Shown in pieces: positions 2 through 16,579 of a stretch of 17,419 nt of DNA (positions are counted from its first letter, which is position 1; each line of letters starts with the position of its first letter). The notes under the pieces are model-generated. The model saw only the letters and a list, made by a program, of their open reading frames with translations, made no database searches and was not told where the DNA came from. This stretch comes from an uncultured Pelagibacteraceae bacterium (GTDB lineage Bacteria; Pseudomonadota; Alphaproteobacteria; Pelagibacterales; Pelagibacteraceae), in assembly GCA_902570545.1 (NCBI GenBank), contig CACFYO010000017.1, positions 1 through 17,419 of the forward strand. The letters are read 5' to 3'. A program made the position numbers and the translations under genes.

Positions 2-1090
2 TCTATAAGTGAGTTTGAAAAGACTGCAAAAAAAGCATTTATAAATTATAGGAAAAAATATTTGCAATATTTTGAACAAAACCAAAAAAAGGTTAGAGAA
101 AAGAAAACTATGCTAGATACTTCACCAAGAGTAATAATAGTACAAAATATTGGAATATTTTGTGTAGGCAACAGTCTTAAAGCAGCAAATATTGCTGCAG
201 ATTTGACAGAAACTAATGCAAGAGTAATCACATCTGTTGAAGAAACTTCAAAGTATAAATTTATACCAAAAAAAGATATTTTTGATGTTGAATATTGGTC
301 TCTTGAACAAGCAAAATTAAAAAAAGAAAAAAAGGAATTAGAAGGGAGTATTGTTGTTATTACTGGTGCTTTTGGTGGAATAGGAACAGCAACATATAAA
401 TTATTCAAAAAATTTGGCGCAGAAGTAATTTTAATAGACAATAACAAAAAAAAGGTCGATGAAATGAGCAAGAAATTAAATGACCTTTGTATTTATTGCG
501 ATGTAACAAACAAAGAAAGTGTTAAAAAAGCATTTAATTTAATATCATCTCAATTTGGAGGAGTAGATATTTTAATATCAAACGCAGGTACTGCAACAGG
601 AGGTTCTATTGCTGAAGTTAGTGATAAAATTTTAAGAAAAAGTTTTGAAGATAATTTCTTTTCTCATCAAAACTGCGCTTCTGAAGCTACAAAAATTATG
701 AAACTTCAAAATAATGAAGGATGTTTATTATTTAATATTTCCAAACAATCTGTAAATCCAGGTAAAAATTTTGGGCCTTATGGATTGCCAAAATCGGCAT
801 TATTAAATCTATGCAAACAATATGCCGTTGATTATGGATCATATGGAATAAGATCTAATGGTGTAAATGCAGATAGAATTAGGAGTGGGCTTCTAAATGA
901 TAAAATGATAAAATCAAGAGCAAGGGCTAGAGAAGTTACGACAGATGAATACATGAAAGGTAATTTACTTTTAAATGAGGTAAAAGCTGAAGATGTAGCC
1001 AAAGCTTTTTTTCATCTTTCAATATCCAAAAAAACCACTGGGGCTATTCTAACAGTTGATGGTGGAAATATTGCTGCATCTTTAAGATAG
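2..1090 (+). CDS. Bifunctional class II aldolase/short-chain dehydrogenase, C-terminal part (5' end outside window)
   Basis: The reading frame is open from base 2, so the gene starts upstream; the first start-like codon inside the window (TTG at 62) is not credible because homologous sequence precedes the dehydrogenase domain. Of the 362 visible residues, roughly 1-110 are the linker that in this family joins a class II (RhaD-like) aldolase to the SDR domain, including the tell-tale stretch FDVEYWSLEQAKL. The SDR part has the nucleotide-binding motif TGAFGGIG (121-128), the NAG motif (194-196), a candidate catalytic Ser at 247 and the YxxxK pair Y260/K264, so it should be an active NAD(P)-dependent oxidoreductase. 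Full-length relatives (about 680-700 residues, for example B. subtilis RhaEW/YuxG) cleave a ketose-1-phosphate to DHAP plus an aldehyde that the SDR half oxidises. The aldolase catalytic half is not visible, so the substrate is unknown. It lies 3 bases before a BKACE gene, probably in one operon. Confidence 0.85.
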   Translation, partial: SISEFEKTAKKAFINYRKKYLQYFEQNQKKVREKKTMLDTSPRVIIVQNIGIFCVGNSLKAANIAADLTETNARVITSVEETSKYKFIPKKDIFDVEYWSLEQAKLKKEKKELEGSIVVITGAFGGIGTATYKLFKKFGAEVILIDNNKKKVDEMSKKLNDLCIYCDVTNKESVKKAFNLISSQFGGVDILISNAGTATGGSIAEVSDKILRKSFEDNFFSHQNCASEATKIMKLQNNEGCLLFNISKQSVNPGKNFGPYGLPKSALLNLCKQYAVDYGSYGIRSNGVNADRIRSGLLNDKMIKSRARAREVTTDEYMKGNLLLNEVKAEDVAKAFFHLSISKKTTGAILTVDGGNIAASLR

Positions 1091-1093
1091 TTT

Positions 1094-1879
1094 ATGCCTT
1101 TTTATCAACCAAATGAATTGCCTAGATTAATGGTAGCTCCAAATGGAGCAAGAAAAATCAAGAAAGATCATCCAGAAGTTCCCTTAACAATAAGGGAAAC
1201 AGTTGATGTTGCTAAAAACTGTTTTGAAGCAGGGGCAGGTGCTATTCATCTGCATGTAAGAAATGATAAAGGAGAACATGTTTTGGATGCTGGACTTTAT
1301 AAAGAGGCATTAAATGAATTAGAACACCAAGTTCCTAAAATGCATATTCAGGTCACTACTGAGGCAGTTGGAAAGTATTCTCCTGAAGAAATGAGGAAAC
1401 TTGCATATGATGTAACCCCACCAGGTACATCAATTGGTACGGCTGAGTTAATACCTTCCAGAAACCCAACAGAGGAAGATATAAAATTATATAAATATTT
1501 GACAGAAGCTGGAACTAAAATACAACATATTTTGTATAATCCACAGGATGTAGACTTATTAGTGAACCTTTTAAATAAAGCAGATATTCCAATTGAAGGA
1601 GCTTGGTGTTTATTTGTAATAGGTCATTACACTGGTAAAATTAGTTATCCAGAAAAAATCCCAGAGTTCTTAAAAGTAATGAAAGATAATAATGTCAATT
1701 TAGATTGGTCAATATGCGCTTTCGCAAAAGAGGAAATGAGTTGTTTGGAAAAAGCTATAAACTTAGGTGGTAAAATAAGAGTAGGATTTGAAAATTCCTT
1801 ATATATGCCAAATGGAGAAATTGCTCCAAACAATCATTCAAAAATATTAGCTGTAAATGAAATGTTCAAGTTATCGTAA
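1094..1879 (+). CDS. BKACE-family (DUF849) beta-keto acid cleavage enzyme
   Basis: This 261-residue protein belongs to the beta-keto acid cleavage enzyme family, Zn-dependent TIM-barrel enzymes that condense a beta-keto acid with acetyl-CoA and split it to acetoacetate plus a new CoA ester (founding member Kce of lysine fermentation). Visible family signatures are APNGAR near the N-terminus (residues 15-20), the metal-binding H52-L-H54 in AIHLHVR, and E233 in RVGFEN, which corresponds to the third Zn ligand. It is a little shorter than many relatives (about 270-310). BKACE substrates vary widely (3-keto-5-aminohexanoate, dehydrocarnitine, beta-ketoadipate and others) and sequence alone does not settle this one. 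It follows the aldolase/SDR gene by 3 bases, suggesting translational coupling, and its last 9 bases overlap the convergent flavin monooxygenase gene. Confidence 0.9.
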   Translation: MPFYQPNELPRLMVAPNGARKIKKDHPEVPLTIRETVDVAKNCFEAGAGAIHLHVRNDKGEHVLDAGLYKEALNELEHQVPKMHIQVTTEAVGKYSPEEMRKLAYDVTPPGTSIGTAELIPSRNPTEEDIKLYKYLTEAGTKIQHILYNPQDVDLLVNLLNKADIPIEGAWCLFVIGHYTGKISYPEKIPEFLKVMKDNNVNLDWSICAFAKEEMSCLEKAINLGGKIRVGFENSLYMPNGEIAPNNHSKILAVNEMFKLS

Positions 1880-3331
1880 AATTGAGGAATATTTTTTAAA
1901 AAGTAAACTAACATCTTTATTTGATCTTGCTGAAGCTAAAATATATCTATCTGGTCTTACTAAAATAGCATTTGAATTTATGTTATTTAAATATGTTGAT
2001 ACATTGCTTAAATTCTTTGCCTCCAATAATGAATAATTTGTTGAGTTTTTGGGCTTTATTTTTGAAGATAATATTAACATTCCCTTTTTTGAAAAATAAT
2101 CATCTAGAGTTTTATTATTATTAAGTTTGAATTGAGGAAAAGTTTTTCCTCTATTTTTATCTTTTAGGCTACCTAAACCTTTTCCTAGTTTAGGCTTAAT
2201 TGATTGCATACTTTTGATGCCTTTGTTATCAGACTTTATATTGTCAGTTATTTGAATGGACTCGACAGCATTTACAAATTCTCCCATCCTCATAGTGGTT
2301 TCAATATATTCTTTAACATTAAGAGATCTTTCCGATTGATATGTGTTTAAAAGTGTTTCATCAAATTTATTTCTTATACAGTATGCAATTTTCCATGCTA
2401 AATTTGATGCATCCCTAATCCCAGCACACATTCCTTGTCCCATAAATGGAGGCATTAAATGAGCGGCATCACCAGCTATAAAAACTCTACCTTTTCGCCA
2501 TTTTCTAGCAATAGCAGACTCAAATGTATAAATTGTTTTTCTTTCAATAATTGCTTCACTTTTATTTAGCCAAGGTTTTAGAAAATTCCAAATATAATTT
2601 TCTGATAAAACTTTTTTATCACTATGATTTTTCTTAATTGCAAATTCCCACCTTCTACGTCTACCAACATTTCTACAATATGTTGCTGGTTGTTTTGGAT
2701 TTGAGTATTGAATTGTTCTATCTGGTAAATTATTTTTTTTCTTTTTCAAAATTAGATCAACTACTGCCCATTTTTGAGTAAAACCTAAATTATCCATTTT
2801 TGTTCTCATTTGTTTTCTAGTTATAGAGTTGGCTCCATCACAGCCAATTACATACTTTGACTTCACGAGATGCTCTTTGTGATTATTTATATTTAAATAA
2901 GTTATATCCACATGATTTTTTGAATTTTTAATTTTTATAACTTCGGAATTTTGTTGTATTGAGACTTTTTTATAATTTTTTAATTTTTTTCTAAGTTTTT
3001 TTTCTAGATCAGGTTGATGAAATCTATAACTTGGATACCATCCATTATCTGTAATTTTTTTTGGCCTTGGCCAATCTAATATTACTTTATCTTTAGAATT
3101 AACAAATTTAGTACCTTTATTAATTATAGTGTGTTTCAAAAATTCTTTTGTAATTCCTATTGTTTGAAATACTCTCATTATTTCATCATCAAAATGAACC
3201 GCTCTAGGCAGAGGATAAAAGCTTTTTTCTCTATCGAGAATTAATATTGAAAACTCATGCATTGCCAGAAGGTTTGCTAAAGTTCCTCCCGTGGGTCCTA
3301 ATCCTATTATTGTGACATCAAATTCTTTCAT
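1871..3331 (-). CDS. FAD-dependent aromatic monooxygenase, MhpA-like
   Basis: A 486-residue class A flavoprotein hydroxylase resembling 3-(3-hydroxyphenyl)propionate hydroxylase, expected to add a hydroxyl next to an existing phenolic OH using NAD(P)H and O2, giving a catechol. Motifs: dinucleotide-binding GLGPTG (10-15), FYPLPRAVHFDDEI (38-51), strongly MhpA-like; the DG motif GCDGANS (163-169); and the GD motif GDAAHLMPPFMGQG (287-300). The C-terminal RPDRY (459-463) also fits. It is shorter than typical MhpA (about 550). I chose the ATG at 3331 with GAAAAGA just upstream, rather than a TTG at 3343 that would crowd the preceding stop. It is the last gene of the leftward cluster, 15 bases after the ring-cleavage dioxygenase that would consume its product. 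The exact aromatic substrate is not readable. Confidence 0.88.
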   Translation of the reverse strand: MKEFDVTIIGLGPTGGTLANLLAMHEFSILILDREKSFYPLPRAVHFDDEIMRVFQTIGITKEFLKHTIINKGTKFVNSKDKVILDWPRPKKITDNGWYPSYRFHQPDLEKKLRKKLKNYKKVSIQQNSEVIKIKNSKNHVDITYLNINNHKEHLVKSKYVIGCDGANSITRKQMRTKMDNLGFTQKWAVVDLILKKKKNNLPDRTIQYSNPKQPATYCRNVGRRRRWEFAIKKNHSDKKVLSENYIWNFLKPWLNKSEAIIERKTIYTFESAIARKWRKGRVFIAGDAAHLMPPFMGQGMCAGIRDASNLAWKIAYCIRNKFDETLLNTYQSERSLNVKEYIETTMRMGEFVNAVESIQITDNIKSDNKGIKSMQSIKPKLGKGLGSLKDKNRGKTFPQFKLNNNKTLDDYFSKKGMLILSSKIKPKNSTNYSLLEAKNLSNVSTYLNNINSNAILVRPDRYILASARSNKDVSLLFKKYSSILR

Positions 3332-3346
3332 TGATCTTTTCAAAAA

Positions 3347-4318
3347 TTATTTATTTTTCAAATTTGAATATAACCAAGGACAATCGATTAACAATGGAGC
3401 TTGTTTACCTTGAGATGCAGTTTCAAGTCTTTTATTTCTAAATTTCATTCTCTCATCATCTGGTAAATAAAGTCTTTCATGTCCCCAAAAACTAGGTCCC
3501 TCAAATGTTTCAATTGGCTCCCATGTGTCTGGATTTATAATCCTCCCACCCCATCCATTTTCAATAAAAAAACCAGATGGTGTAATTGAATAAAATGAAG
3601 TCATATAATCATTGGTATGTCGTCCCATTGTATAAGCAATTGCGTTATCCTTGTATTGTAATAAGTCATAACCTTGACCTACATCATCTAAGTTGTTGTA
3701 TTCAACCATAAAATGATGAAAACCAGTTCCACCTGAACCAAATAAAGCTAAACTATGATGTCTACCATTAACATGAAAAAAGCATAAAGATATTGGAGTA
3801 TGACTATAATCACTTATCTTAAAACCCATTACGTCTCTGTAAAAGGGAATTAAATCATCAATATTTTTAACATGTACAACTGCATGTCCCATACCAAGTG
3901 GCCCAGTCTTAAATCCTGAAATTGGCCTACCTGGTTTAAATGGATCAGTATCTAACATAGGCTTATACACAAGCTCAATACGATTTCCTTGTGGGTCGTT
4001 AAAATATATTAAATCTTCAACAAAACGTTTATCAGCAAAAGAAGTCTTCCCATGATTTACTACTATTTTATTTTCCTCTAATTTATTTGCAAAGGTTTGA
4101 AGATCTTCTTTGCTCTCAACTTCCCATCCTAAAAATCCTAATCCATCTCCTTTATCACCAGTTATTGTTAACCTTTGTTTTTGGTCATCCATTCTAAAAG
4201 ATAGAATTTCTTTTCCTCGATCTATCTGTTGCATACCAAGATATTTTTGAGAATACAATGACCAATCCTCAAATTTATCTGAATTAACTCCGATATAACT
4301 TAAAGCTTTTACTGCCAT
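3347..4318 (-). CDS. VOC-family extradiol ring-cleavage dioxygenase (BphC/HsaC-like)
   Basis: A two-domain vicinal-oxygen-chelate dioxygenase of 323 residues that should cleave a catechol meta to the hydroxyls using Fe(II) or Mn(II) and O2. The C-terminal domain aligns by eye with 2,3-dihydroxybiphenyl dioxygenase: metal ligands H145 (GMGHAVVHV), H202 (FHHFMVEY) and E253 (FFIENGW), and second-sphere catalytic residues H187/H188 (GRHHS), H234 and N236 (GRHTND) and Y243 (SFYSITPSG). All expected active-site residues are present, so activity is likely. The N-terminal domain (1-120) ends in NDPQGNRIELVYKP, typical of the structural repeat. It sits downstream of dctP and a hairpin, and upstream of the flavin hydroxylase, which supports a hydroxylation then meta-cleavage sequence. 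No clear Shine-Dalgarno site precedes the ATG. Confidence 0.92.
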   Translation of the reverse strand: MAVKALSYIGVNSDKFEDWSLYSQKYLGMQQIDRGKEILSFRMDDQKQRLTITGDKGDGLGFLGWEVESKEDLQTFANKLEENKIVVNHGKTSFADKRFVEDLIYFNDPQGNRIELVYKPMLDTDPFKPGRPISGFKTGPLGMGHAVVHVKNIDDLIPFYRDVMGFKISDYSHTPISLCFFHVNGRHHSLALFGSGGTGFHHFMVEYNNLDDVGQGYDLLQYKDNAIAYTMGRHTNDYMTSFYSITPSGFFIENGWGGRIINPDTWEPIETFEGPSFWGHERLYLPDDERMKFRNKRLETASQGKQAPLLIDCPWLYSNLKNK

Positions 4319-4380: not shown

Positions 4381-5394
4381 TTAACCGTCTATTTTAGAAA
4401 TTACTTCTCTTGCCCTTTTTAATACAGCATCTCCATCAAGACCTTTACCTTTCATTTCTGCTAACCAGTCTGATTCAATTGGAGCTAATATTTTTTTGTA
4501 TTCAGCTAACACTGATTCCGATGCAATAGTTATCTCGTGCCCTGGAGTATTTTCTACTTGAACTCTCATCTTGGCATTCTGAGTATCAATTAAATTAGAT
4601 GCCCAATCGCCAAACCATTGACCTGAATGTTTATCAACACATCCTTTTGCTGCTGAAGAAAGACCATTATATTTCCCTTCATTCATTATTAATCCAAATG
4701 TAGCATTAGTAATGTTAACTTCTGTATGATATTTAGTAACATCAAATAATCTAAATGAACCAATTGCTGTGTATGGGAAAGGTGTGCCATCTATAACACC
4801 TTTATTTAAGGCTTCTGAAGTTCCTGGTGCTGGCACTTTAACCCCAGTTGCTCCTAAAGTTTTAAGAATTGTTCCTGCTATTTTGCTTGGAACTCTCATT
4901 TTTTTACCTTTAAAGTCTGCAGGTTTAACTACTTTAGTATCCTTCATATGGATTTGGTATCCAGGGTTCGAATGAAGTCCTATCAGTTTAATTCCTGCCA
5001 TTTCTTTATCTAGGTAACCTTCTTCAAAAAGAGTATTTAGAGCTCTAGATCCAGCTTTTGAAGTTTTAGTTAAGAATGGTAGTTCTACAACTGAACTTAA
5101 AGGAAATTGACCACCAATATATCCAAGAACTGTCCAGGATATATCTGCAACTCCTGAAGTTACTATATCGTATTGTTTAGGAGGACTTCCTAATACACCT
5201 CCTGCATACATTTTTACGTTTAAAGCACCATTTGAACATTTGTTAACTTTATCTGCCCAAGCAGCTAAAATCTTACTTGCTATAAATGCTTTTGGTGGTT
5301 CAAAAGTTGCTAACTTTAATTCTGTAGCTGATGCCGTACTAATAATGCTTAAGGAAAAAATTCCTATAACAAAACCAATTATTTTTTTTTTCAT
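4381..5394 (-). CDS. dctP: TRAP transporter substrate-binding protein, DctP family
   Basis: A 337-residue periplasmic solute receptor. Residues 1-23 form a signal peptide (KKK, hydrophobic core, cleavage after ASA), and the mature protein has the DctP fold signatures including R167 in KKMRVPSK, the position of the conserved Arg that usually salt-bridges the ligand carboxylate, and ALNKGVIDG (195-203). Two cysteines in the mature protein (C53, C252) could form a disulfide. The start ATG is preceded by AGAGGGG, the clearest Shine-Dalgarno site of this cluster, consistent with high expression. Its membrane partners dctQ and dctM are on the opposite strand across the divergent promoter. The enzyme neighbours suggest an aromatic or other organic acid ligand; this is inference from context. 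Confidence 0.93.
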   Translation of the reverse strand: MKKKIIGFVIGIFSLSIISTASATELKLATFEPPKAFIASKILAAWADKVNKCSNGALNVKMYAGGVLGSPPKQYDIVTSGVADISWTVLGYIGGQFPLSSVVELPFLTKTSKAGSRALNTLFEEGYLDKEMAGIKLIGLHSNPGYQIHMKDTKVVKPADFKGKKMRVPSKIAGTILKTLGATGVKVPAPGTSEALNKGVIDGTPFPYTAIGSFRLFDVTKYHTEVNITNATFGLIMNEGKYNGLSSAAKGCVDKHSGQWFGDWASNLIDTQNAKMRVQVENTPGHEITIASESVLAEYKKILAPIESDWLAEMKGKGLDGDAVLKRAREVISKIDG

Positions 5395-5444: not shown

Positions 5445-6296
5445 TTAGATTATTTCATCCTTAATTGTATTAGATAAAGTGCCAATTTCTGTGATTTCTA
5501 TTTCAACATTATCTCCTGGCTTCATAAATACCGGAGGGTTTCGTTTAAACCCTACACCTCCAGGCGTACCAGTGACTAGTACATCACCTGCTCTCCAAGC
5601 CATAGCTTTAGAAACATACGAAATTAAAATTGGAATATCGAAAATAAGTTGACTTAATTTAGCGTTTTGCATGACTTCGCCATTTAATCTAGTTTCAATT
5701 GTTAAATTTTTATAATTATTAATGTCTTCAGCTAAAACCATGTGTGGACCAAAACTCCCTGTTTTTTCAAAGTTTTTACCCATCCCAAATTGTCTTGTAT
5801 GTCTCTGCCAATCTCTTACAGTGCTTTCATTATAACATGAATAACCAATTATATGCTTTAAAGCATCCTCAGGTTTTATGTGTTTGCCACCTTCACCCAT
5901 AATTACCGCCATCTCACCTTCAAAATCTAAACTTTGTGAAACAACAGGTCTTTGAATTGGTTGTAAGTGTGCAGTTTGACTTTCTGGAAATCGATGAAAA
6001 ATTACTGGGTTCTCTTCAACTGTTCTGTTGGTTTCTTTAACATGTTCACTATAATTTAAACCTACACAAATAATTTTTCCAGGATTTGGAATTAATGGCA
6101 AATATTCAATATTTGAGTCATTTATATTGCCTGGATTATTTGTTGCATAAGATTTTGCTTCTTCTATTCCTTGATTTGAAATTAAATCTTTAAGTGTATT
6201 TGAATTTGATACTTTTCCAGTTAGATCTGTAATTTTATTATTATTTATAATACCAAACTTGTTTTGATCATTATGTTTAAAAGAAATAAATTTCAT
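5445..6296 (-). CDS. Fumarylacetoacetate hydrolase (FAH) family hydrolase/isomerase
   Basis: A 283-residue FAH-fold enzyme. The family hydrolyses or isomerises diketo- and hydroxymuconate-type acids, commonly products of aromatic ring cleavage. Visible motifs: KIICVGLNYSEH (74-85) with the candidate catalytic H85, the metal-binding pair E126 and E128 in DFEGEMAVIMG, and VTGTPGGVGF (241-250). The third metal ligand is normally the Asp of an ND(x)SxRD motif; here the motif reads NESTVRD, with E157 in the Asp place, a conservative change. It is the first gene of the leftward operon, 50 bases before dctP, and probably processes the product of the extradiol dioxygenase encoded downstream. A role on other substrates (for example diketo sugar acids) cannot be excluded. 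Confidence 0.9.
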   Translation of the reverse strand: MKFISFKHNDQNKFGIINNNKITDLTGKVSNSNTLKDLISNQGIEEAKSYATNNPGNINDSNIEYLPLIPNPGKIICVGLNYSEHVKETNRTVEENPVIFHRFPESQTAHLQPIQRPVVSQSLDFEGEMAVIMGEGGKHIKPEDALKHIIGYSCYNESTVRDWQRHTRQFGMGKNFEKTGSFGPHMVLAEDINNYKNLTIETRLNGEVMQNAKLSQLIFDIPILISYVSKAMAWRAGDVLVTGTPGGVGFKRNPPVFMKPGDNVEIEITEIGTLSNTIKDEII

Positions 6297-6363: not shown

Positions 6364-6855
6364 ATGATTTCTAAAGTCAGTAAAGTTTTTGATTATTCGG
6401 CGATAGCTTCAGGCATTGTTTTGTTTTTATTAGCTGTATTAACTTTCTCTGACGTTTTTGGAAGACGATTTTTAAATTCACCAGTTACAGGTACAATAGA
6501 GTTAGTTGAAATAGGAATGGCATTAGTAGCTTTCCTCGCAATGCCAAGAGCATTTTATTTAAATGCTAATGTTTCAGCGGATTTTATAAATAATTTAAAT
6601 TTGGGTATATTTAAAACTTATTTGGTAATTTTAAAATTTGTTTTAATGATAACGATTATGTCCTTAATGGCATACTCTACTACTTTGACATCATACAAAT
6701 TTATGAAAAATCAAAGAGTAACGATTGACCTAGAACTTTATTTTTATCCTTTTTATTTCATATGCTCTATTGGGATGTGGTTAAGTGTTTTTGCTATCAT
6801 CATATGGTTTATTAAAACTATTTTTAAAAGTAATTCAAAAGCTGAGAATTTATAA
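6364..6855 (+). CDS. dctQ: TRAP transporter small membrane subunit, DctQ family
   Basis: A 163-residue inner-membrane protein with four predicted transmembrane helices (about residues 10-30, 43-62, 82-104 and 126-149), the usual size and layout of DctQ. GTIELVEIGMALVAF in helix 2 matches the family's characteristic ELVE motif region. DctQ pairs with DctM to form the Na+-coupled permease. Its stop codon overlaps the dctM start in TAATG, so the two are translationally coupled. It is transcribed divergently from the FAH gene and presumably served by the dctP encoded at 4381-5394. Confidence 0.92.
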   Translation: MISKVSKVFDYSAIASGIVLFLLAVLTFSDVFGRRFLNSPVTGTIELVEIGMALVAFLAMPRAFYLNANVSADFINNLNLGIFKTYLVILKFVLMITIMSLMAYSTTLTSYKFMKNQRVTIDLELYFYPFYFICSIGMWLSVFAIIIWFIKTIFKSNSKAENL

Positions 6856-8165
6856 TGGGATTAGAAGCTGTAATTAATGGCGGATTGTCTTTTGCCGCTG
6901 TATTAATTTTGATGGTATTAAATGTACCAATAGGAATTTCAATGTTGGTAGTTGGTTTTACTGGCTTTGCAGTGATTTCAGGATTTGACCCTGCAATATT
7001 TGTTTTGGGAACTGCTCCTTTTGATGCTGTCTCAAAATATACATTATCAGTTTTGCCTTTGTTTGTTCTAATGGGAAATCTTGCCAACAGTTCAAATTTA
7101 TCAAGAAATTTATATGATGCAGCTTATGCAATAGTGGGTCATTACAAAGGTGGTTTAGCAATGTCTACAGTTGGAGCATGCGCTGGATTTGGAATGATTT
7201 GTGGATCTTCAATTGCAACAGCTGCAACAATGTCTCAAATGGCTGGCCCAGAAATGAGAAGACATGGTTACAGTGATGCCCTAATAAGTGGATCTATTGC
7301 ATCTGGTGGAACGCTTGGAATCATAATTCCTCCGAGTGTTATTTTAGTAATATATGCTTATCTAACTGAACAGTCTGTGCAAGAATTATTTTTTGCTGCA
7401 CTGATACCTGGGATAATAGCAGTGGTACTGTATATGATTGCTATTAGGATTTATCTTTTAATTTATCCCTCACAAGGTGGTTATGGAACAAAGATGCCTT
7501 TGAAGGAACGAATTTCTGCATTATCAAAAGTTTTTCCAATTTTTTTAATATTTGCAATCATGATGGGTGGACTTTATTTAGGTTTTTTTACAGCAACAGA
7601 AAGTGCTGCAGTAGGTGTAATATTAGTTTTAATTTTTATATTTTTTAGAGGTCAATTAAAATTAAGTTTATTGAAAGATGCTTTATGGACGACTATAAAA
7701 ACTGTTGGTTCTTTATATTTAATTGTTATTGGCGCAAGTATATTTAATTATCTTATAACTGTTACGCAGTTACCTTTTGCAGTTGTTGATTTTATTAATT
7801 ATCTTGAGCTTACTCCATTAGGGATAATTTTAGTAATTTGTGCAATTTATTTAGTTCTTGGTACTGTAATGGACTCTTTGGCAATGTTATTTTTAACTAT
7901 TCCAGTATTTTATCCAGTGATTATTGATGCTGGAATTGACCCTGTTTGGTTTGGTATATTTGCAGTTATAGTTGTCGAATTTGGATTAATTTCACCTCCT
8001 GTTGGAATGAATTTATTCGTTATTAAAGGTGTAATGCAAAAAACACCTTTACAAACTATATGGTTTGGAACTCTTCCATTCTTAATGACTGACGTAATTA
8101 GGCTCGCTTTAATTATTGCTTTTCCTGCAATTTGTTTATATTTGCCTAGTCTGATGGCTCACTAG
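6855..8165 (+). CDS. dctM: TRAP transporter large membrane subunit, DctM family
   Basis: A 436-residue, very hydrophobic protein of normal DctM length with about a dozen helices; this subunit carries the transport channel and the Na+ sites. Recognisable family stretches are LPLFVLMGNLA (66-76), GFGMICGSSIATAATM (111-126) and the GGTLGIIIPPSVILVIYAY region, with the C-terminal mirror EFGLISPPVGMNLFVI. The ATG overlaps the dctQ stop by one base. Its last 20 bases overlap the convergent gene for a small membrane protein, and there is no obvious terminator hairpin. Confidence 0.95.
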   Translation: MGLEAVINGGLSFAAVLILMVLNVPIGISMLVVGFTGFAVISGFDPAIFVLGTAPFDAVSKYTLSVLPLFVLMGNLANSSNLSRNLYDAAYAIVGHYKGGLAMSTVGACAGFGMICGSSIATAATMSQMAGPEMRRHGYSDALISGSIASGGTLGIIIPPSVILVIYAYLTEQSVQELFFAALIPGIIAVVLYMIAIRIYLLIYPSQGGYGTKMPLKERISALSKVFPIFLIFAIMMGGLYLGFFTATESAAVGVILVLIFIFFRGQLKLSLLKDALWTTIKTVGSLYLIVIGASIFNYLITVTQLPFAVVDFINYLELTPLGIILVICAIYLVLGTVMDSLAMLFLTIPVFYPVIIDAGIDPVWFGIFAVIVVEFGLISPPVGMNLFVIKGVMQKTPLQTIWFGTLPFLMTDVIRLALIIAFPAICLYLPSLMAH

Positions 8166-8484
8166 TATCATTAATTTTTTTTATATAATTAAAATAAAGA
8201 AAACCAAAAACTGCGCCTACTATCATTAAAATATATTGATAGAATTTTAATAATACAAATACTATTGGTAATTCTTTACCTGGATTCTGAGCATAAAAAT
8301 TATCTGTACCATCTTTATATAGATCCATTGGACCTAAAGTTGCATACAAACCAAAGATAAATATATAAATACAAGGTAATAAAGAAATAATTAATAAAAT
8401 TCTATTTCCACGAATTAATTTTATTAAATTTGCAGAAATCCCTACCGAAACTAAGCAAATTAGCGACAATATTAAAGGGTTCAT
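8146..8484 (-). CDS. Small integral membrane protein of unknown function
   Basis: I do not recognise this 112-residue protein. It has three likely transmembrane helices (about 3-21, 28-50 and 73-98), a polar loop between helices 2 and 3 (roughly LYKDGTDNFYAQNPGK), and a hydrophilic tail ending in NDTSEPSD. The start is the ATG at 8484, overlapping the sulfatase-family stop in TAATG; a TTG at 8490 is less likely. It is the last gene of the mtnP-to-sulfatase operon, and its 3' end runs 20 bases into dctM on the other strand. The coupling suggests it works with the hydrolase upstream, perhaps as a membrane anchor or small transporter, but that is only context. Confidence 0.75.
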   Translation of the reverse strand: MNPLILSLICLVSVGISANLIKLIRGNRILLIISLLPCIYIFIFGLYATLGPMDLYKDGTDNFYAQNPGKELPIVFVLLKFYQYILMIVGAVFGFLYFNYIKKINDTSEPSD

Positions 8485-10067
8485 TACCAAACTCCTATCA
8501 TAATTCCATCATCTTTTGTATAATCTCTTTCTTTTAAAACAAATTCATCTGTTGCTGCAACCCTATTTTTTCTATTTGTAATTCTTTTAAGCAATATATC
8601 CTTCATTTCATCAATAATTTTTTTATGTTCTGATGATTGGCCTCGATCATTGAATTCATCTGGATCATTTTTTAAATCAAATAATTGAGGTGGAAAACCT
8701 TTATAATAAATATACTTCCAATTATTATTTCTAATCATATAAGCTCTAGCGTCTGATGCTCCAATATTAAGAATTTTTCTTGCTTCGTTAAAAGAGTAAT
8801 CTATTTCACTAAATACACTCTCTTTCCAATTAGAGACTTCATTTCCTCTAATAATTGGTAACAAAGATTGTCCTTCAAGGCGATGTTTACTTACATTGCT
8901 ATCAACAAAGTCTAAAAAAGTTGGTAGTAAATCAATAGCCTCTACAAATCTGTTTTCTCTTACTCCTCTAGTATTATCTGACAAATTACTAGGATCATAA
9001 ATTATCATTGGAACTTTAACAATTTGTTCGTGAAATAGTTCTTTTTCTCCTAGCCAATGATCACCCTGGTAATCACCATGGTCTGATGTAAAGACTATCA
9101 TTGTATTTTTCATGTAATCTTTTTCTTCTAGAAATTTAAATAGCCTACCAAGATTGTCATCGATTTGTTTTATTAGCCCCATATATCCCGAAAGAACAGT
9201 GTTTCTTACTTCTTCTCTTGAAAAAGTCTTTGAAATATTATTTTCCATGAAAGCTTTGAACACTGGATGATCTATTTCTTTCTCAGCGTTACTTCGATGA
9301 ACTGGGTAAAATTGGTTTGCTGAATACATGTTATGGTAAGGTGCAGGTGCAATATATGGCCAGTGAGGTTTTATAAATGATAAATGCAGAAACCAAGGCC
9401 TTTCTCCACTTTCTTGAATAAACTCCATAGATCGATTAGTCATGAAAGCAGTTTCTGAGTGCTCCTGTTTAACTCTCGCAGGTTTATTAGAATTTCTTAA
9501 CCTCCATCCACTTAAAATATTTCCATTTTCATCTTCTGATGAATTTGCCCAACTATCCCAAGGGTTTTGACCATCGTATCCAAGTTTGTTTAACCAGTCA
9601 TTGTAAGATAGTTTTTTGGTTGAATTTTTAATATGGTTATTAGGATGAAGTCCGTCATCTCTCTCATAAGGATCAAATCCTGGTTCACTAACTGTCAGAC
9701 CTATTTCTGTATCTTTTGAAATTCCAAGTCTATTCATTCCATCTATATCGGGTCTCATATGTGTTTTACCAACAACTCCAGTTCTAATTCCAGATTGCCT
9801 CAAATAATCTCCAATAGTTAACTCACCGATTGGTAAAGGTATTTGGTTCCAAGTTGATCCATGGCTAAATACTGTTCTTCCAGTATAGTAAGACGCTCTT
9901 GATGGACCACAAACAGGAGCTTGAACATAAGCTGACTCGAATAAAATTCCTTTTTTTGCTAAACCATCTAAGTGAGGAGTTTTAAGGTGAGGATGACCAT
10001 AACAAGAAAGATAATCAAATCTAAGTTGATCAGCCATTATAAATAAAATATTTTTAACTTTATTCAT
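8484..10067 (-). CDS. Sulfatase-family hydrolase (alkaline phosphatase superfamily), cytoplasmic
   Basis: A 527-residue type I sulfatase-fold enzyme. Metal ligand D13 (MADQ), the formylglycine motif C53-G-P-S-R57 followed by ASYYTGR, G100-K-T-H103, D329-H330 (FTSDHGDYQGDH) and the C-terminal PQLFDLKNDPDEFND are all present, so catalysis is expected if Cys53 is converted to formylglycine. There is no signal peptide: the metal-binding strand begins at residue 7. The enzyme should therefore work in the cytoplasm on a small substrate, as choline sulfatases and phosphonate monoester hydrolases do. The CxPSR form slightly favours a sulfate ester over a phosphonate or phosphate diester, but the superfamily is promiscuous. 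It overlaps the mtnA stop by one base (TAATG), placing it firmly in a methylthioadenosine-salvage operon. Confidence 0.9.
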   Translation of the reverse strand: MNKVKNILFIMADQLRFDYLSCYGHPHLKTPHLDGLAKKGILFESAYVQAPVCGPSRASYYTGRTVFSHGSTWNQIPLPIGELTIGDYLRQSGIRTGVVGKTHMRPDIDGMNRLGISKDTEIGLTVSEPGFDPYERDDGLHPNNHIKNSTKKLSYNDWLNKLGYDGQNPWDSWANSSEDENGNILSGWRLRNSNKPARVKQEHSETAFMTNRSMEFIQESGERPWFLHLSFIKPHWPYIAPAPYHNMYSANQFYPVHRSNAEKEIDHPVFKAFMENNISKTFSREEVRNTVLSGYMGLIKQIDDNLGRLFKFLEEKDYMKNTMIVFTSDHGDYQGDHWLGEKELFHEQIVKVPMIIYDPSNLSDNTRGVRENRFVEAIDLLPTFLDFVDSNVSKHRLEGQSLLPIIRGNEVSNWKESVFSEIDYSFNEARKILNIGASDARAYMIRNNNWKYIYYKGFPPQLFDLKNDPDEFNDRGQSSEHKKIIDEMKDILLKRITNRKNRVAATDEFVLKERDYTKDDGIMIGVW

Positions 10068-11140
10068 TATCTATTAAACATTTGTTTTAAACCTACAGTA
10101 GATGCCTCGCATATACCTTTCTCTGTAATTAAACCTGTTACATATTTTGCAGGTGTTATATCAAATGCTAAGTTCATTGATTTACTTTTTTCAGGATAAA
10201 TTAAAACTTTCGTGATGTTATTTTTATCGTCCTTTCCTTCTATATGCGATAGTTCCTCAGAATTTCTTTCTTCAATAGGTATTTTATTATAATCTTTAGT
10301 TTCCCAATCAATTGTAGAACTTGGCAAAGCTACATAAAAGGGCACATTATTATCATGTGCTGCTAATGCTTTTAAATATGTACCAATTTTATTACAAACA
10401 TCTCCAGTAGATAGAGTTCTGTCTGTTCCAACAATGCACATATCAACCTCTCCCCTTTGCATTAAAATACCACCAGTATTATCTGTAATAATTGTATTTG
10501 GTATACCCTCTTCATTTAATTCATATGATGTTAAATTTGCCCCTTGATTTCTTGGTCTAGTCTCATCGACCCATACATGAATTGGTATTCCTTTTTTATG
10601 TGCTTGATAAATTGGTGAGGTTGCTGTTCCCCAATCTATAGTTGCTAACCACCCTGCATTACAGTGAGTTAAGATATTAACAGTTTTATTATTTTTATTA
10701 TAAATTTCTTCAATTATTTTTAGTCCATTAAATCCTATGTTCTCACAAAATTTTACATCCTCATCACATATTAATTTTGCTTCTTTTAACGCTATATCCA
10801 ACAATTCATCAGACTTCACAAATGATAATTTATTATTCATTCTATGAACTGCCCATTGCAAGTTTATAGCTGTAGGTCTTGAATTAACTAATTCTTCTGA
10901 ACTTTTTTTAATGAAATCTAAATTTTTATTTTCTTGTATTGCCAATACTATTGCGTAGGCAGCAGTTCCACCAATAAGAGGTGCTCCTCTTACCTCCATA
11001 GTTTTTATCGCTTTTATTGCATCTCTTATTGTCTTTAAATCTTTAACAACAAACTGATGTGGGAGTTTGGTTTGATCAATTATTTTTACTACATTATTTT
11101 CATACCAAATTGTTCTATATTTTTTTCCCTTTATTCTCAT
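10067..11140 (-). CDS. mtnA: S-methyl-5-thioribose-1-phosphate isomerase (MtnA)
   Basis: A 357-residue aldose-ketose isomerase of the eIF2B-related family, converting 5-methylthioribose-1-phosphate to 5-methylthioribulose-1-phosphate in the cytoplasm. Signatures: RGAPLIGGTAAY (51-62), catalytic C160 in THCNAGWLAT, VDETRPRNQGANLTSYEL (191-208), catalytic D240 in VGTDRT, and NKIGTY (250-255). C160 and D240 fall at the same numbers as in the B. subtilis enzyme. Residues around 280-305 form a lysine- and glutamate-rich insertion-like stretch. The gene starts directly after the stop of the upstream oxygenase gene (TAAATG) and overlaps the sulfatase-family gene by one base. Some homologues also isomerise 5-deoxyribose-1-phosphate, which fits a dual-purpose salvage route. 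Confidence 0.94.
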   Translation of the reverse strand: MRIKGKKYRTIWYENNVVKIIDQTKLPHQFVVKDLKTIRDAIKAIKTMEVRGAPLIGGTAAYAIVLAIQENKNLDFIKKSSEELVNSRPTAINLQWAVHRMNNKLSFVKSDELLDIALKEAKLICDEDVKFCENIGFNGLKIIEEIYNKNNKTVNILTHCNAGWLATIDWGTATSPIYQAHKKGIPIHVWVDETRPRNQGANLTSYELNEEGIPNTIITDNTGGILMQRGEVDMCIVGTDRTLSTGDVCNKIGTYLKALAAHDNNVPFYVALPSSTIDWETKDYNKIPIEERNSEELSHIEGKDDKNNITKVLIYPEKSKSMNLAFDITPAKYVTGLITEKGICEASTVGLKQMFNR

Positions 11141-11932
11141 TTAATTGCTCCAAACCACAGGAAACCAATCCTTTCTCATTTTATCTCCTGAATTTAAATC
11201 TATTCCTTCAAAAGGTGGAGAAGTTTCTCCTTTTCTTTCAATGTATCTTACATCGTCTCCAATAAATCTTGCGGAGAATGCTTTACGACTTTTTTTGTCA
11301 TTATTTCCTGAAGATGAATGTAAAACTTTAAAATTAAATAATATTGCATCTCCCATATTCATCTCTGCACTAAAAATATTTTTTTTATCTATATTTGGCA
11401 TATCCATAAAATTCTTATTATTTTTATACCAAAAAGTGTCATTTGACCATTTGGTAGGCTTTACTAACATTGGTAACTTATGGGATCCTTTCAAAACTTT
11501 AAGGCAGTTATTTTTTGAAACGTTATCTAATGGTATCCAGAAACTTCCTGTATCATTTCCATCTACACAATAATATGGAAGATCTTGATGCCATGGAGTT
11601 TCCTTTTTTGTTCCAGGTTCCTTTAAGAAAATGTGCTCATGAAATACCTGAATTTGATTAGATTGAGTTGATTGTGCAACAATTTCTGCTGCTGGTGAGT
11701 TAAAAATAAAATCTTTAAATTCTTCAATTCTCTCCCAGTTACAATAATCTTCAAAAAATCTCCCTCCTTGTTTTTGTGAAATATTTTCCCTTCCGTGTGA
11801 ACTTGGGTTATTTAATACTTTGTGAAATCCAGTTTTAAGTTTTTCAATCCAGGGTAAAAAAATTTGTTTGATTAAAATTACACCATCATTTTTATAATTT
11901 AAAATTTGCTTATCAGATAATTTTACTGTCAC
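11141..11932 (-). CDS. Phytanoyl-CoA dioxygenase (PhyH) family Fe(II)/2-oxoglutarate oxygenase
   Basis: A 263-residue non-haem oxygenase that should couple 2-oxoglutarate decarboxylation to hydroxylation of a small metabolite. The iron triad is H115-x-D117 in TPWHQDLPYY and distal H205 in VLHSSSGN; R216 lies 11 residues after the distal His, the spacing of the 2-oxoglutarate-binding Arg in human PhyH. Bacterial members act on varied small molecules (ectoine, aminoethylphosphonate and others), so the substrate is unknown. The GTG start at 11932 is fixed by a GTGA overlap with the mtnP stop, and the stop abuts the mtnA start. Being locked between mtnP and mtnA argues for a substrate connected to methylthioadenosine or deoxyadenosine salvage; this is inference. 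Confidence 0.9.
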   Translation of the reverse strand: MTVKLSDKQILNYKNDGVILIKQIFLPWIEKLKTGFHKVLNNPSSHGRENISQKQGGRFFEDYCNWERIEEFKDFIFNSPAAEIVAQSTQSNQIQVFHEHIFLKEPGTKKETPWHQDLPYYCVDGNDTGSFWIPLDNVSKNNCLKVLKGSHKLPMLVKPTKWSNDTFWYKNNKNFMDMPNIDKKNIFSAEMNMGDAILFNFKVLHSSSGNNDKKSRKAFSARFIGDDVRYIERKGETSPPFEGIDLNSGDKMRKDWFPVVWSN

Positions 11933-12801
11933 TTATTTAAAACTCTTCCAGCTACTGTTTTTAGTTTGTCTTTGGTTTTTTGTGATCTTTTTTCTGGAGC
12001 TGTAATTATAGCAACATCTAAGCAATTATTTGTTGGGTCATTCAGGTCAATATGAGTATCAAAATTATCAATAAGATTTTTAATCATACTTTTTGCTTTA
12101 GAGGCATTATCTAATAATACTTTTATTACTTGTTGCACATCAACATTTTCATGATCTGGATGCCAACAATCATAATCTGTTACCATTGAGACAGATGCAT
12201 ATCTAATTTCTGCTTCTCTTGCCAATTTGGCTTCAGGCATATTTGTCATTCCTATCACATCGGCTTTCCATGATCTGTAAAGATTCGACTCAGCCAAAGT
12301 TGAAAATTGTGGACCTTCCATTACAATATAGGTTCCTCCCCTTTGATAATCTATTCCTTCTTTTTTAATTGCATCCTCACATGCATTCATTAATCCCTTA
12401 GAAGTTGGGTGTGCCATTGATACATGAGCAACTATTTCATCGTCAAAAAAAGTTTTATTTCGAGCAAATGTTCTGTCTATAAATTGATCAATAATAACAA
12501 ATTTACCAGGAGGCAAGTTTTCTTTCAAAGAACCAACTGCAGAGACAGAGACAATATCTGTTACACCCAATTGTTTTAATGAGTCAATATTTGCTCTAAA
12601 ATTTATGTTTGATGGTGAAATAAAGTGTCCCTTACCATGTCTTGGTAAAAAGTAAACTTCCTTATTTTTATAAATTGTTTTTAAAATCTGATCTGATGGT
12701 TTTCCCCAAGGAGTGTTTAAATCTATTAATTCTCTATCTTTAAACTCCTCTACGTCGTATAGACCACTTCCACCTATTATTGCTAATTTATTATTTGCCA
12801 T
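11929..12801 (-). CDS. mtnP: 5'-methylthioadenosine phosphorylase (MtnP)
   Basis: A 290-residue purine nucleoside phosphorylase-fold enzyme that splits methylthioadenosine with phosphate into adenine and methylthioribose-1-phosphate. Motifs: IIGGSGLYD (8-16), phosphate-binding RHG (54-56), TYIVMEGPQFSTLAES (157-172) and GMTNMPEAKLAREAE (184-198). D209 and D211 in VTDYDCWH occupy the positions that give 6-aminopurine specificity in MTA phosphorylases, whereas guanosine/inosine phosphorylases carry Asn there. It is the first gene of the leftward operon, with a short leader and no obvious Shine-Dalgarno site, and is divergent from apt, which reuses its adenine product. Confidence 0.95.
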   Translation of the reverse strand: MANNKLAIIGGSGLYDVEEFKDRELIDLNTPWGKPSDQILKTIYKNKEVYFLPRHGKGHFISPSNINFRANIDSLKQLGVTDIVSVSAVGSLKENLPPGKFVIIDQFIDRTFARNKTFFDDEIVAHVSMAHPTSKGLMNACEDAIKKEGIDYQRGGTYIVMEGPQFSTLAESNLYRSWKADVIGMTNMPEAKLAREAEIRYASVSMVTDYDCWHPDHENVDVQQVIKVLLDNASKAKSMIKNLIDNFDTHIDLNDPTNNCLDVAIITAPEKRSQKTKDKLKTVAGRVLNK

Positions 12802-12838: not shown

Positions 12839-13366
12839 ATGGATTTAAAAGATTATATTCGCTCAATTAAAGATTATCCTAAAAAGGGTATTTTATTTAG
12901 AGATATAACTACTTTAATAAAGAATGAGACTGCTTTTGAGGAAACAATTAATCAAATCGTCGAAAGATCCAAAAAATTTAAGGTAGATAAAATAGCTGCA
13001 ATTGAATCTCGTGGTTTTGTATTTGCATCTGCTGTTTCTTATATTTTAAAAAAACCATTTATAATGCTAAGAAAAAAAAACAAACTTCCTGCTGATGTAC
13101 ACTCAGTTGATTTTGAACTTGAATATGGAACAGCAACAATAGAAGTTCATAAAGATTCAATTTCAGAAAATGATTCAGTTCTAATAATAGATGATTTGAT
13201 AGCAACAGGAGGAACCGCAGAAGCTGCAGCGAAACTTATAGAAATTTCTGACGGAAATGTTGCAGCTTTTATATTTGTCATAAATCTTTTTGACTTAGGT
13301 GGTTGCGATAATCTTATAAAAAAAGGATATAAAGTTGAAAATTTAATGGATTTTCCAGGTCATTAG
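12839..13366 (+). CDS. apt: Adenine phosphoribosyltransferase (Apt)
   Basis: A 175-residue type I phosphoribosyltransferase of standard length that makes AMP from adenine and PRPP. The PRPP-binding loop is VLIIDDLIATGGTAEAA (114-130), with the family's IESRGFVFASAV (55-66) and YPKKGILFRDIT (13-24). It is divergent from mtnP, whose reaction yields adenine, so the pair forms an adenine-recycling unit. There is no recognisable Shine-Dalgarno site and the candidate -10 is only 9 bases from the ATG, so the transcript may be leaderless. A run of nine A at 13072-13080 lies within the coding sequence. The stop codon is 2 bases from the 3' end of a convergent tRNA gene. Confidence 0.95.
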   Translation: MDLKDYIRSIKDYPKKGILFRDITTLIKNETAFEETINQIVERSKKFKVDKIAAIESRGFVFASAVSYILKKPFIMLRKKNKLPADVHSVDFELEYGTATIEVHKDSISENDSVLIIDDLIATGGTAEAAAKLIEISDGNVAAFIFVINLFDLGGCDNLIKKGYKVENLMDFPGH

Positions 13367-13368
13367 TT

Positions 13369-13445
13369 TGGTAGCGGGAAGTGGGATCGAACCACTGACC
13401 TCGGGCTTATGAGTCCCGCGCTCTAACCAACTGAGCTACCCCGCC
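13369..13445 (-). tRNA. tRNA with CAT anticodon, probably elongator tRNA-Met
   Basis: A 77-base cloverleaf with an encoded CCA. Acceptor GGCGGGG pairs with TCCCGCT (G-U wobbles at 1-72 and 7-66); D stem GCTC/GAGC; anticodon stem CGGGA/GCCCG around loop CTCATAA; variable loop AGGTC; T stem AGTGG/CCACT with loop TTCGATC; discriminator A73. Pair 31-39 is an A-G mismatch. The AGTTGGTTA D loop, and an anticodon stem without three consecutive G-C pairs next to the loop, argue against initiator tRNA. A CAT anticodon could also be lysidine-modified Ile2, so identity is Met with some doubt. Confidence 0.93.
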
Positions 13446-13461
13446 TTAAAATTATTTTTGC

Positions 13462-13489
13462 CTTATACTACTTATTTTTTTTCATTCAA
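13462..13489 (-). promoter_or_regulatory. Candidate promoter of the tRNA gene
   Basis: On the - strand, TTGAAT (13484-13489) and TATAAG (13462-13467) are separated by 16 bases, with the -10 ending 16 bases before the mature tRNA. That leaves room for a leader of about 9 bases to be removed by RNase P. The 62-base gap between tRNA and the glycosyltransferase stop holds nothing else recognisable. Confidence 0.5.
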
Positions 13490-13507
13490 ACAAGAAAATC
13501 AGAAAAA

Positions 13508-14479
13508 TTATAAATCTTTATAAAAATTCAAAATATCATTACAAGTATTATCATAATCAAATCTATCTAAATTATAATTTATTTTTTCTGGTCTATTCTC
13601 ATAAGCTTTAATAATTTTATTTTTTAAATCATCTATATTTTCATTTTCGAAAGTTTCAACATTGTAGTTGGAGATCCAATCCTTATTACCCTCGTGTACA
13701 CTAGTTATTATTGGTAGTGAAAAAGTCATTGCCTCAACCATAGCAATACCAAAAGTTTCCCATCTTGAGGCAGATATATAGCAATCAAAGAGTTTATAGT
13801 AATCCTGAATATTATCTTTATGTCCAAGTGTAATTATATTTTTACTCCTATAATGTTTGTATTCATTATGACTATTTCCAATAAGTATTAAATAAGAATT
13901 TTCTAATTTTAAATTTTTAAAGCTTTCATAAATGATATCAAAACCCTTTTGTTTATGAAATCTTCCTACAGAGCCAAATATGTAGCTTTTTTCTGGTATA
14001 GATAATTCTTTTTTAATCTCTTTATTTTTTTTAAAAAAATTATTCGTAGCGCAGGGCCAATAATATAAGTTTTTAATTTTTCCTTTAAATAGTTTTGAAG
14101 CTTTTTTAATTTGAGTTTTATTTGGAATTATAAGGCCATCGTGATTTAAATAATGATTTTCTTGAAAATTCATATGCACAGTAGATACAAGCTTAAAATT
14201 TTTCTTTGTAATAATTTTGCTCGCATTTCCTAAATGAGTATGAACAATATCAGGCTTTATAGTTCCAATAATTCTGTTAATTTTAATTTTTTTAAAAAAA
14301 CCTTTCAAATCATATGTTATGACATTACTATTTAAAAATTTTTTGTATTTTTTTGAGTCAGAATCTGGATTTTTTATTAAGAAGGTTTGATGGTTTTGAG
14401 ATTGATGGTTTAGTAGATTTATTGCATATAATTCAGATCCAGCAAATCCTTTTGAGATCAACACATGAAGAATTTTCAT
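13508..14479 (-). CDS. Glycosyltransferase family 4 (GT-B fold)
   Basis: A 323-residue GT-B glycosyltransferase that probably transfers a sugar from a nucleotide donor to a lipopolysaccharide core or other surface glycan on the cytoplasmic face of the inner membrane. The N-terminus MKILHVLISKGFAGSELYAI carries the GG/GS-type loop before an acceptor-domain helix. In the C-terminal domain, FGSVGRFHKQKGFD (168-181) provides the donor-phosphate-binding R173 and nearby lysines, and E241-TFGIAMV-E249 is the classic EX7E motif. At 323 residues it is shorter than many GT4 proteins (about 370). It stands alone in its orientation; no other glycan genes are in the window, so acceptor and donor are unknown. 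Confidence 0.9.
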   Translation of the reverse strand: MKILHVLISKGFAGSELYAINLLNHQSQNHQTFLIKNPDSDSKKYKKFLNSNVITYDLKGFFKKIKINRIIGTIKPDIVHTHLGNASKIITKKNFKLVSTVHMNFQENHYLNHDGLIIPNKTQIKKASKLFKGKIKNLYYWPCATNNFFKKNKEIKKELSIPEKSYIFGSVGRFHKQKGFDIIYESFKNLKLENSYLILIGNSHNEYKHYRSKNIITLGHKDNIQDYYKLFDCYISASRWETFGIAMVEAMTFSLPIITSVHEGNKDWISNYNVETFENENIDDLKNKIIKAYENRPEKINYNLDRFDYDNTCNDILNFYKDL

Positions 14480-14485
14480 ATTTTT

Positions 14486-14514
14486 AAAATACCAACATAA
14501 AAATGATTGGGCAA
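14486..14514 (-). promoter_or_regulatory. Weak candidate promoter for the glycosyltransferase
   Basis: On the - strand, TTGCCC (14509-14514) and TATTTT (14486-14491) are spaced by 17 bases, each matching consensus at four of six positions, just upstream of the glycosyltransferase ATG. Read-through from the glutathione S-transferase gene is the alternative. Confidence 0.25.
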
Positions 14515-14531
14515 ACTTAAGTTAATACTTA

Positions 14532-15218: not shown

Positions 15219-15224
15219 TTAAAT

Positions 15225-15407
15225 TTATGAGGCTATAAATTTTATTAAGTAATAAAGAATACCTGTAATTATTGTTGCATAAATAAAGCCAACAACAAAA
15301 AATTTGATAATTATTTTATTATCATCATATTTTGATTTTAAATTTACATAAATTAGAGTGTAAATTCCTACTATTGCAATACTCAATAATATATCTGTTG
15401 GATTCAT
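15225..15407 (-). CDS. Small two-helix membrane protein of unknown function
   Basis: A 60-residue reading frame from an ATG, with two likely transmembrane helices (about 6-23 and 34-56) joined by a charged loop KSKYDDNK. I recognise no family. It is placed head-to-tail with the glutathione S-transferase gene and separated from it by 6 bases, which supports it being real, although it lacks a clear Shine-Dalgarno site. Confidence 0.6.
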   Translation of the reverse strand: MNPTDILLSIAIVGIYTLIYVNLKSKYDDNKIIIKFFVVGFIYATIITGILYYLIKFIAS

Positions 15408-15536
15408 AGATTTATTTATAATTCTAATTTAATCCAATAATATTACTTATTCAATTGATAATAGAATAATTTTAGATTGTCTTATCTTTGTCAAATAATA
15501 AACTACTTTTATTAAAAATATAGAGAGAGGAAAAAA
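15408..15536. promoter_or_regulatory. Divergent regulatory region between the 60-residue protein gene and the second TRAP operon
   Basis: This 129-base A/T-rich gap must carry promoters for both directions. For dctP (+), TTGTCA (15488-15493) and TATTAA (15510-15515) are spaced by 16 bases, followed by the strong ribosome binding site AGAGAGAGG (15522-15530). For the leftward genes, TTGAAT with TAAATT 17 bases on is possible but weak. An 8-bp palindrome TCAATTGA at 15451-15458 is a possible operator core. Confidence 0.4.
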
Positions 15537-16553: not shown

Positions 16554-16579
16554 AATAAGTTATTTACTTAGTCTAAAAA

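Follow-up and report, generated by a model that had tools for sequence, protein, structure and literature searches.

Two modules probably meet in the DNA analysed here, a 17,419-nt stretch from an uncultured Pelagibacteraceae bacterium of SAR11 (GenBank assembly GCA_902570545.1, contig CACFYO010000017.1; hereafter the window): a gene set for the disposal of methylthioadenosine (MTA), accompanied by an extra oxygenase gene, and, abutting it, a separate island for aromatic degradation. Five consecutive minus-strand genes, mtnP, a PhyH-family oxygenase gene, mtnA, a sulfatase-family gene and a gene for a small membrane protein, lie where the two would meet, and these genes, their order and their four junctions, as described in the initial annotation, all matched the window sequence. 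The mtnP and PhyH genes overlap by 4 bases (GTGA), PhyH and mtnA abut with no gap (TAAATG), mtnA and the sulfatase gene overlap by one base (TAATG), and the sulfatase and small membrane protein genes do the same (TAATG) when the ATG start of the latter is taken, its longest mechanical open reading frame (ORF) beginning at a TTG at 8490. The further proposal, that all five genes define one unreported fate for MTA, 5'-deoxyadenosine or a related sulfonium or sulfate metabolite, was dropped because an aldolase is present and the sulfatase tracks the island. The features of the window that bear on both modules are given below, with coordinates, strand and the basis of each assignment.

12839..13366, plus strand: apt, adenine phosphoribosyltransferase, divergent from mtnP (NF002634, above cut-off)
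11929..12801, minus strand: mtnP, MTA phosphorylase (NF006492, 442.2 bits, cut-off 437)
11141..11932, minus strand: PhyH-family Fe/2-oxoglutarate oxygenase, GTG start (PF05721, 92.7 bits, cut-off 22)
10067..11140, minus strand: mtnA, methylthioribose-1-phosphate isomerase (TIGR00512, 416 bits, cut-off 279)
8484..10067, minus strand: sulfatase/phosphonate-monoester-hydrolase-type enzyme, first island gene (PF00884, 175.6 bits, cut-off 25; PDB 4upi; CGPSR motif)
8146..8484, minus strand: small protein of 114 aa with three hydrophobic stretches, ATG start
6855..8165, plus strand: DctM, large subunit of a tripartite ATP-independent periplasmic (TRAP) transporter, island (PF06808)
6364..6855, plus strand: DctQ-like small TRAP subunit, island (size and location next to DctM; island conservation)
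5445..6296, minus strand: fumarylacetoacetate-hydrolase-family (FAH) enzyme, island (best NCBIfam and PDB relatives; NCBIfam scores below cut-off)
4381..5394, minus strand: DctP-like solute-binding protein, island (translation; island conservation)
3347..4318, minus strand: extradiol ring-cleavage dioxygenase, BphC-like, island (PF00903; TIGR03213, 252 bits, below the cut-off of 366; PDB 6l3w, E=1.5e-51)
1871..3343, minus strand: flavin adenine dinucleotide (FAD)-dependent aromatic hydroxylase, MhpA-like, island (NF004829, 510.7 bits, cut-off 390)
1094..1879, plus strand: beta-keto acid cleavage enzyme (BKACE), island (PF05853; PDB 2y7d, E=1.8e-21)
2..1090, plus strand: fused class II aldolase/short-chain dehydrogenase, 3' part, proposed methylthioribulose-1-phosphate aldolase (NF006192)

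An aldolase of the dihydroxyacetone phosphate (DHAP) shunt had been reported as missing from the locus, and the fused aldolase/dehydrogenase at 2-1090 corrects this. Positions 2-1087 of the window match positions 322-685 of NF006192 (bifunctional aldolase/short-chain dehydrogenase); since the match is confined to these profile positions, the window edge removes the aldolase half. A full-length fusion from another SAR11 locus (L073) contains both domains and scored 898 bits with NF006192 (cut-off 639), and 445 bits, below the cut-off of 568, with the rhamnulose version TIGR02632. In the nearest genome compared (L106), the full-length fusion lies at 13683-15716 and is followed by a SpeD-SpeE fusion (speDE), a family-3 solute-binding protein and two permeases. 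The order in L106 is apt facing left, mtnP, mtnA, sulfatase and small membrane protein facing right, DctM and DctQ facing left, FAH, DctP, BphC and FAD hydroxylase facing right, BKACE and the fusion aldolase facing left, and speDE, solute-binding protein and the two permeases facing right; this is the order of the window minus PhyH, with mtnP overlapping mtnA directly by 4 bases. In other SAR11 loci the fusion is replaced beside speDE by a free class II aldolase some 210-220 aa long, and one locus (L127) has the L106 arrangement plus PhyH, with the free aldolase replacing the fusion.

The distribution of the two aldolases was determined in 147 genomes of the family, a set that, like the 399-genome genus set used below, was not drawn by PhyH. 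With thresholds of E<=1e-100 for the fusion and E<=1e-35 for the free aldolase, mtnP was found in 106 genomes, SpeD-SpeE in 114, the fusion in 43 and the free aldolase in 66, and no genome held both aldolases, against 19.3 expected if they were independent (Fisher 6.6e-15, uncorrected for phylogeny). Both kinds occur within one genus (g5; fusion in 12 genomes, free aldolase in 10) and among the close relatives of the window, which suggests that the two have repeatedly replaced one another. One aldolase or the other was present in 100 of the 106 mtnP genomes, and in 98 of those 100 it lay no more than 15 kb from mtnP on the same contig. Wherever the genes shared a contig, mtnP was no more than 15 kb from the fusion (36/36), the free aldolase (62/62) and speDE (95/95), and the aldolase was within 200 bases of speDE in 64/64 genomes for the free form and 39/40 for the fusion. 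The acireductone dioxygenase MtnD (PF03079) was over its cut-off in none of the 147 relatives, three weak matches falling below it. The aldolase alternation, the proximity of mtnP and speDE, the lack of an MtnD match over the cut-off in the 147 genomes and the divergent apt fit a DHAP-shunt-type MTA salvage set beside polyamine synthesis.

MTA is a co-product of SpeE. In the proposed route, the SpeD-SpeE fusion would yield spermidine and MTA, MtnP would phosphorolyse MTA to adenine and methylthioribose-1-phosphate, Apt would recover the adenine so released, and MtnA would convert methylthioribose-1-phosphate to methylthioribulose-1-phosphate. The fusion, as in the window, or the free FucA-like aldolase would then cleave methylthioribulose-1-phosphate to DHAP and methylthioacetaldehyde. 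The short-chain dehydrogenase domain, which is fused to one aldolase type only, is predicted to act on the methylthioacetaldehyde where it is present.

As described in the available portion of PMC5893883, the DHAP-methanethiol/DHAP-ethylene shunt of Rhodopseudomonas palustris and Rhodospirillum rubrum comprises MtnP, MtnA, Ald2 and a putative alcohol dehydrogenase, and its MtnP, MtnA and class II aldolase genes stand together, as in SAR11. The SAR11 set differs in that its aldolase is either free or dehydrogenase-fused, with no genome found to hold both, and in its position near SpeD-SpeE and apt; the likeness to Ald2 is one of class. According to the accessible text of PMC10986504, the E. coli ATCC 25922 DHAP shunt (Pfs, MtnK, MtnA, Ald2) likewise reaches DHAP through an isomerase and an aldolase, whereas SAR11 would use the phosphorylase MtnP in place of nucleosidase plus kinase. 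A multidomain SpeE that is a gene-fusion product, as here, is described in a paper on SAR11 polyamine metabolism (PMC8437039), of which the available main text makes no mention of mtnP, an aldolase or mtnA, one mtnA being counted elsewhere in the record. Neither a SAR11 DHAP shunt nor this island was mentioned in the titles and abstract openings of the open-licence literature surveyed.

The nearest PDB entry to one free aldolase was FucA (E=1.8e-47), and the next of another kind was 6btd (E=2.4e-34), which we take to be the 5-deoxyribulose-1-phosphate aldolase DrdA. An identity as MtnB was set aside for the free aldolase, which scored 64 bits with TIGR03328 (cut-off 137). The best named relatives of the two aldolases, FucA and a RhaD/dehydrogenase fusion, would also suit enzymes acting on another sugar phosphate (L-rhamnulose-1-phosphate or L-fuculose-1-phosphate), with MTA salvage ending at methylthioribulose-1-phosphate. 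We consider this quite unlikely, as two distinct aldolases alternate beside speDE and near mtnP, and the published shunt, in the part of PMC5893883 available, is made up of MtnP and MtnA with a class II aldolase.

The sulfatase was found to go with the TRAP/aromatic island rather than with the MTA genes, the second element of the two-module arrangement that we regard as probable. DctM lay no more than three genes from the sulfatase in all 38 loci where the neighbour was visible, 3 further loci ending first. The island order sulfatase-DctM-DctQ-FAH-DctP-BphC-FAD hydroxylase-BKACE recurred in L106, L108 (with one extra ORF), L109 and L111, and neither mtnP nor mtnA was seen beside the island in the fetched 16 kb of L108, L109 and L111. 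Among the family genomes the sulfatase was detected in 18/147, of which 15 have mtnP, 5 of them on the same contig; in only one of these five were the two genes within 15 kb, and in the other four they were about 43 kb apart. These results are at odds with the initial placement of the sulfatase in an MTA pathway. Its position directly behind mtnA would instead be due to the island sitting between mtnA and the aldolase, so that the first island gene reads on from mtnA. The small membrane protein, for which Pfam and NCBIfam searches gave no match, is not fixed to the sulfatase: it follows the sulfatase in the L106 island, gave no match at E 1e-6 in L108, L109 and L111, and occurs without a sulfatase in L035, L036, L038, L039, L042 and L044.

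A single pathway served by all five genes could draw on the recurrence of their exact order in 28/95 compared SAR11 loci and on nearly constant junctions (for example mtnP/PhyH -4 in 50/53 loci and PhyH/mtnA 0 in 49/52). Against it stand the association with DctM, the class II aldolase fusion at the locus, and the 83 mtnA-bearing loci, in which the sulfatase adjoined mtnA in only 32, was 2-5 genes off in 6 and was not seen in 45 (1 truncated), together with 3 further loci having the sulfatase without mtnA; we hold a single pathway to be most improbable. For the island itself, the gene content suggests an imported aromatic or aryl sulfate as the substrate, which would be taken up by the TRAP transporter and pass through ester hydrolysis, FAD-dependent hydroxylation, extradiol ring cleavage, FAH-type hydrolysis and BKACE cleavage.

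In PDB comparisons the sulfatase matched members of the arylsulfatase/phosphonate-monoester-hydrolase group of the alkaline phosphatase superfamily over its full length (4upi, E=4e-179; 4upl, E=6e-169), and its CxPxR motif, CGPSR at residue 53, was invariant in 39/39 sequences. The SAR11 enzymes differ from that group in that a maturase was undetected in most of the carriers tested. That 8/9 carriers tested gave no maturase over the cut-off although the Cys-type motif is conserved may be due to gaps in the assemblies, to an enzyme that stays unmodified or to a novel maturase.

Several points weigh against the two-module arrangement. A formylglycine maturase over the cut-off was found in only 1/9 sulfatase-bearing genomes with PF03781 (G130) and in 0/9 with TIGR03942, several of the genomes being incomplete, and sulfatase activity is therefore uncertain. 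The free aldolase fell below every listed NCBIfam cut-off, its best score being FucA-like at 194 of 264 bits, and to our knowledge no activity has been reported for either SAR11 aldolase. Among the family genomes, many of them incomplete, 6/106 with mtnP had neither aldolase, and in 9 of 147 an aldolase was found but no mtnP. What lies past the window edge, the aldolase half and speDE, was read from relatives and not from the window's own genome, and the dehydrogenase domain could either reduce or oxidise methylthioacetaldehyde. Lastly, while the gene families, their order, the alternation of the two aldolases and the occurrence of each module apart from the other are observed, we infer every enzymatic step, the island substrate and co-transcription.

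The initial annotation had taken the tight packing of the five genes as a sign of a shared job. In the same 95 loci, 1178 co-directional neighbouring ORF pairs were counted, of which 415 overlap (by <30 bases) and 575 are <=3 bases apart; packing at this locus is therefore no tighter than the SAR11 background and is uninformative on a shared job. The exact five-gene order was present in 28 of the 95 loci, the window included, the other 27 being titled Pelagibacteraceae and L127 carrying it likewise, so that the order is no artefact of one assembly. The expected conservation of gene order thus held within a SAR11 clade, and the order is not confined to a single strain, but the slot between mtnP and mtnA was empty in 13/76 loci and held other genes in 11/76, which comes near to the condition that the initial annotation had named as speaking against a joint pathway. 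Eighty of the loci compared had been selected for PhyH similarity (80 kept of 300), and the slot counts therefore lean to PhyH-bearing genomes. The loci are not all independent, as L115 and L076 have identical PhyH proteins and L126 and L127 appear to repeat L024 and L045, and small genes may be missed since only ORFs of >=70 aa were kept and those overlapping by >35% were dropped.

The PhyH protein looks like an optional accessory oxygenase, whose gene one PhyH group carries between mtnP and mtnA. Its iron site HxD...H (H115, D117 and H205) was invariant in 88/88 sequences. PhyH was present in 98/399 genus genomes, and mtnP was found in 84/98 PhyH-bearing genomes as compared with 200/301 without PhyH (odds ratio 3.0, p 1.8e-4, uncorrected for phylogeny), which bears out the association of PhyH with MTA genes noted at first; in genomes >=90% complete the difference, 14/15 with PhyH against 31/42 without, was not significant (p 0.15). 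Distances were obtained for 45 of the 84 genomes, a set that favours the mtnP most like that of the window and so leans to its own clade: in 36 the pair shared a contig, always within 12 kb, and in 9 the genes were on different contigs. On the PhyH tree, which was midpoint-rooted as it has no outgroup rows (89 = 54+28+7), PhyH lay between mtnP and mtnA in 54 rows, after the ABC permease gene in 28 and in neither place in 7, and its position required only 2 changes.

The 28 rows after the permease would fit a different assignment, in which PhyH belongs to the polyamine half and its hydroxylation target is a polyamine, a polyamine precursor or whatever the adjacent ABC transporter for polar amino acids carries. 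A complete genome (G013) agrees with this, since it keeps speDE-ABC-PhyH, while neither mtnP nor either aldolase was found genome-wide, nor mtnA within the 16 kb retrieved, and the fold neighbours of PhyH include proline, leucine and ectoine hydroxylases. The larger sampled group nevertheless places PhyH between mtnP and mtnA (54/89 rows, with 7/89 in neither place), and we regard the polyamine assignment as possible while leaning against it. The slot after the ABC permease holds a carbon-nitrogen hydrolase in L035, L036, L038, L042, L044, L050, L052 and L127, nearest to deaminated glutathione amidase but below the cut-off.

PhyH could also be neutral or niche cargo in an insertion-prone slot, without a functional tie to MTA. 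Of the 11 loci with other genes in the mtnP/mtnA slot, 9 were inspected (L062, L064, L077, L078, L082, L092, L107, L110 and L112); their slot proteins are diverse, start by eye with a hydrophobic, signal-like stretch, and in 8/9 share with PhyH the 4-base overlap with mtnP. These proteins and the slots that are empty or filled with other genes would be expected of cargo. The two changes of position on the PhyH tree and the co-occurrence with mtnP, with its stated limits, argue the other way, and we judge cargo rather unlikely. A second, different PhyH-family gene was observed between the sulfatase and DctM in L056 (17334-18089), L063 and L068, by a family search on the L056 copy.

For an accessory oxygenase of MTA disposal, a conceivable reaction is hydroxylation of the S-adjacent carbon of 2-(methylthio)ethanol or (methylthio)acetate supplied by the aldolase and dehydrogenase, giving an unstable product that would break down to methanethiol and glycolaldehyde or glyoxylate. 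This S-dealkylation rests on gene position and chemistry, the sequence pointing to no such substrate, and we offer it as a long shot. The best 120 of 1085 PhyH relatives were unnamed or generic 'ectoine hydroxylase-related dioxygenase', and Foldseek and VIA rows gave the common oxygenase fold with no substrate indicated; the structural models were uneven, with a best mean pLDDT of 82.6 and 34-41 for the other four. MysH is an Fe/2-oxoglutarate oxygenase that acts in mycosporine synthesis. Its structures (9c9n, 9ci4) share the fold with PhyH, from which the substrate is not transferable.

Outside the two modules, a gathering-threshold search of the window with Rfam found only tRNA, and regulation by a known RNA element was dropped on this result. 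The region 13369-14479, which lies beside tRNA-Met and is flanked by apt and the GST gene, varies widely in gene content among relatives and is likely an insertion hot spot; among the loci compared, L025 and L047 alone gave a match to the glycosyltransferase of the window. A second TRAP set (DctP-like protein, small subunit and the start of a DctM-like ORF) occupies 15537-17419 beyond the GST gene.

What remains of interest is a probable SAR11 route for MTA that resembles the DHAP shunt and has two aldolases never found together, an MTA-linked oxygenase, and, within a streamlined genome, an island that combines sulfatase and ring-cleavage genes. In the available part of PMC5893883 the aerobic enzyme of the R. 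palustris DHAP-methanethiol shunt is left unidentified. PhyH is a candidate for the oxygenase that would free methanethiol from methylthio compounds and, if the S-dealkylation were true, would be that missing aerobic step.

SAR11 account for a large fraction of the bacteria in the ocean and need reduced sulfur and glycine-type compounds, which methanethiol with glycolaldehyde or glyoxylate would suit. Gene overlap in streamlined genomes such as theirs is weak evidence for a shared job. The locus offers a testable route for the MTA from SAR11 polyamine synthesis, which would run through either of two alternative aldolases, one with its own dehydrogenase.

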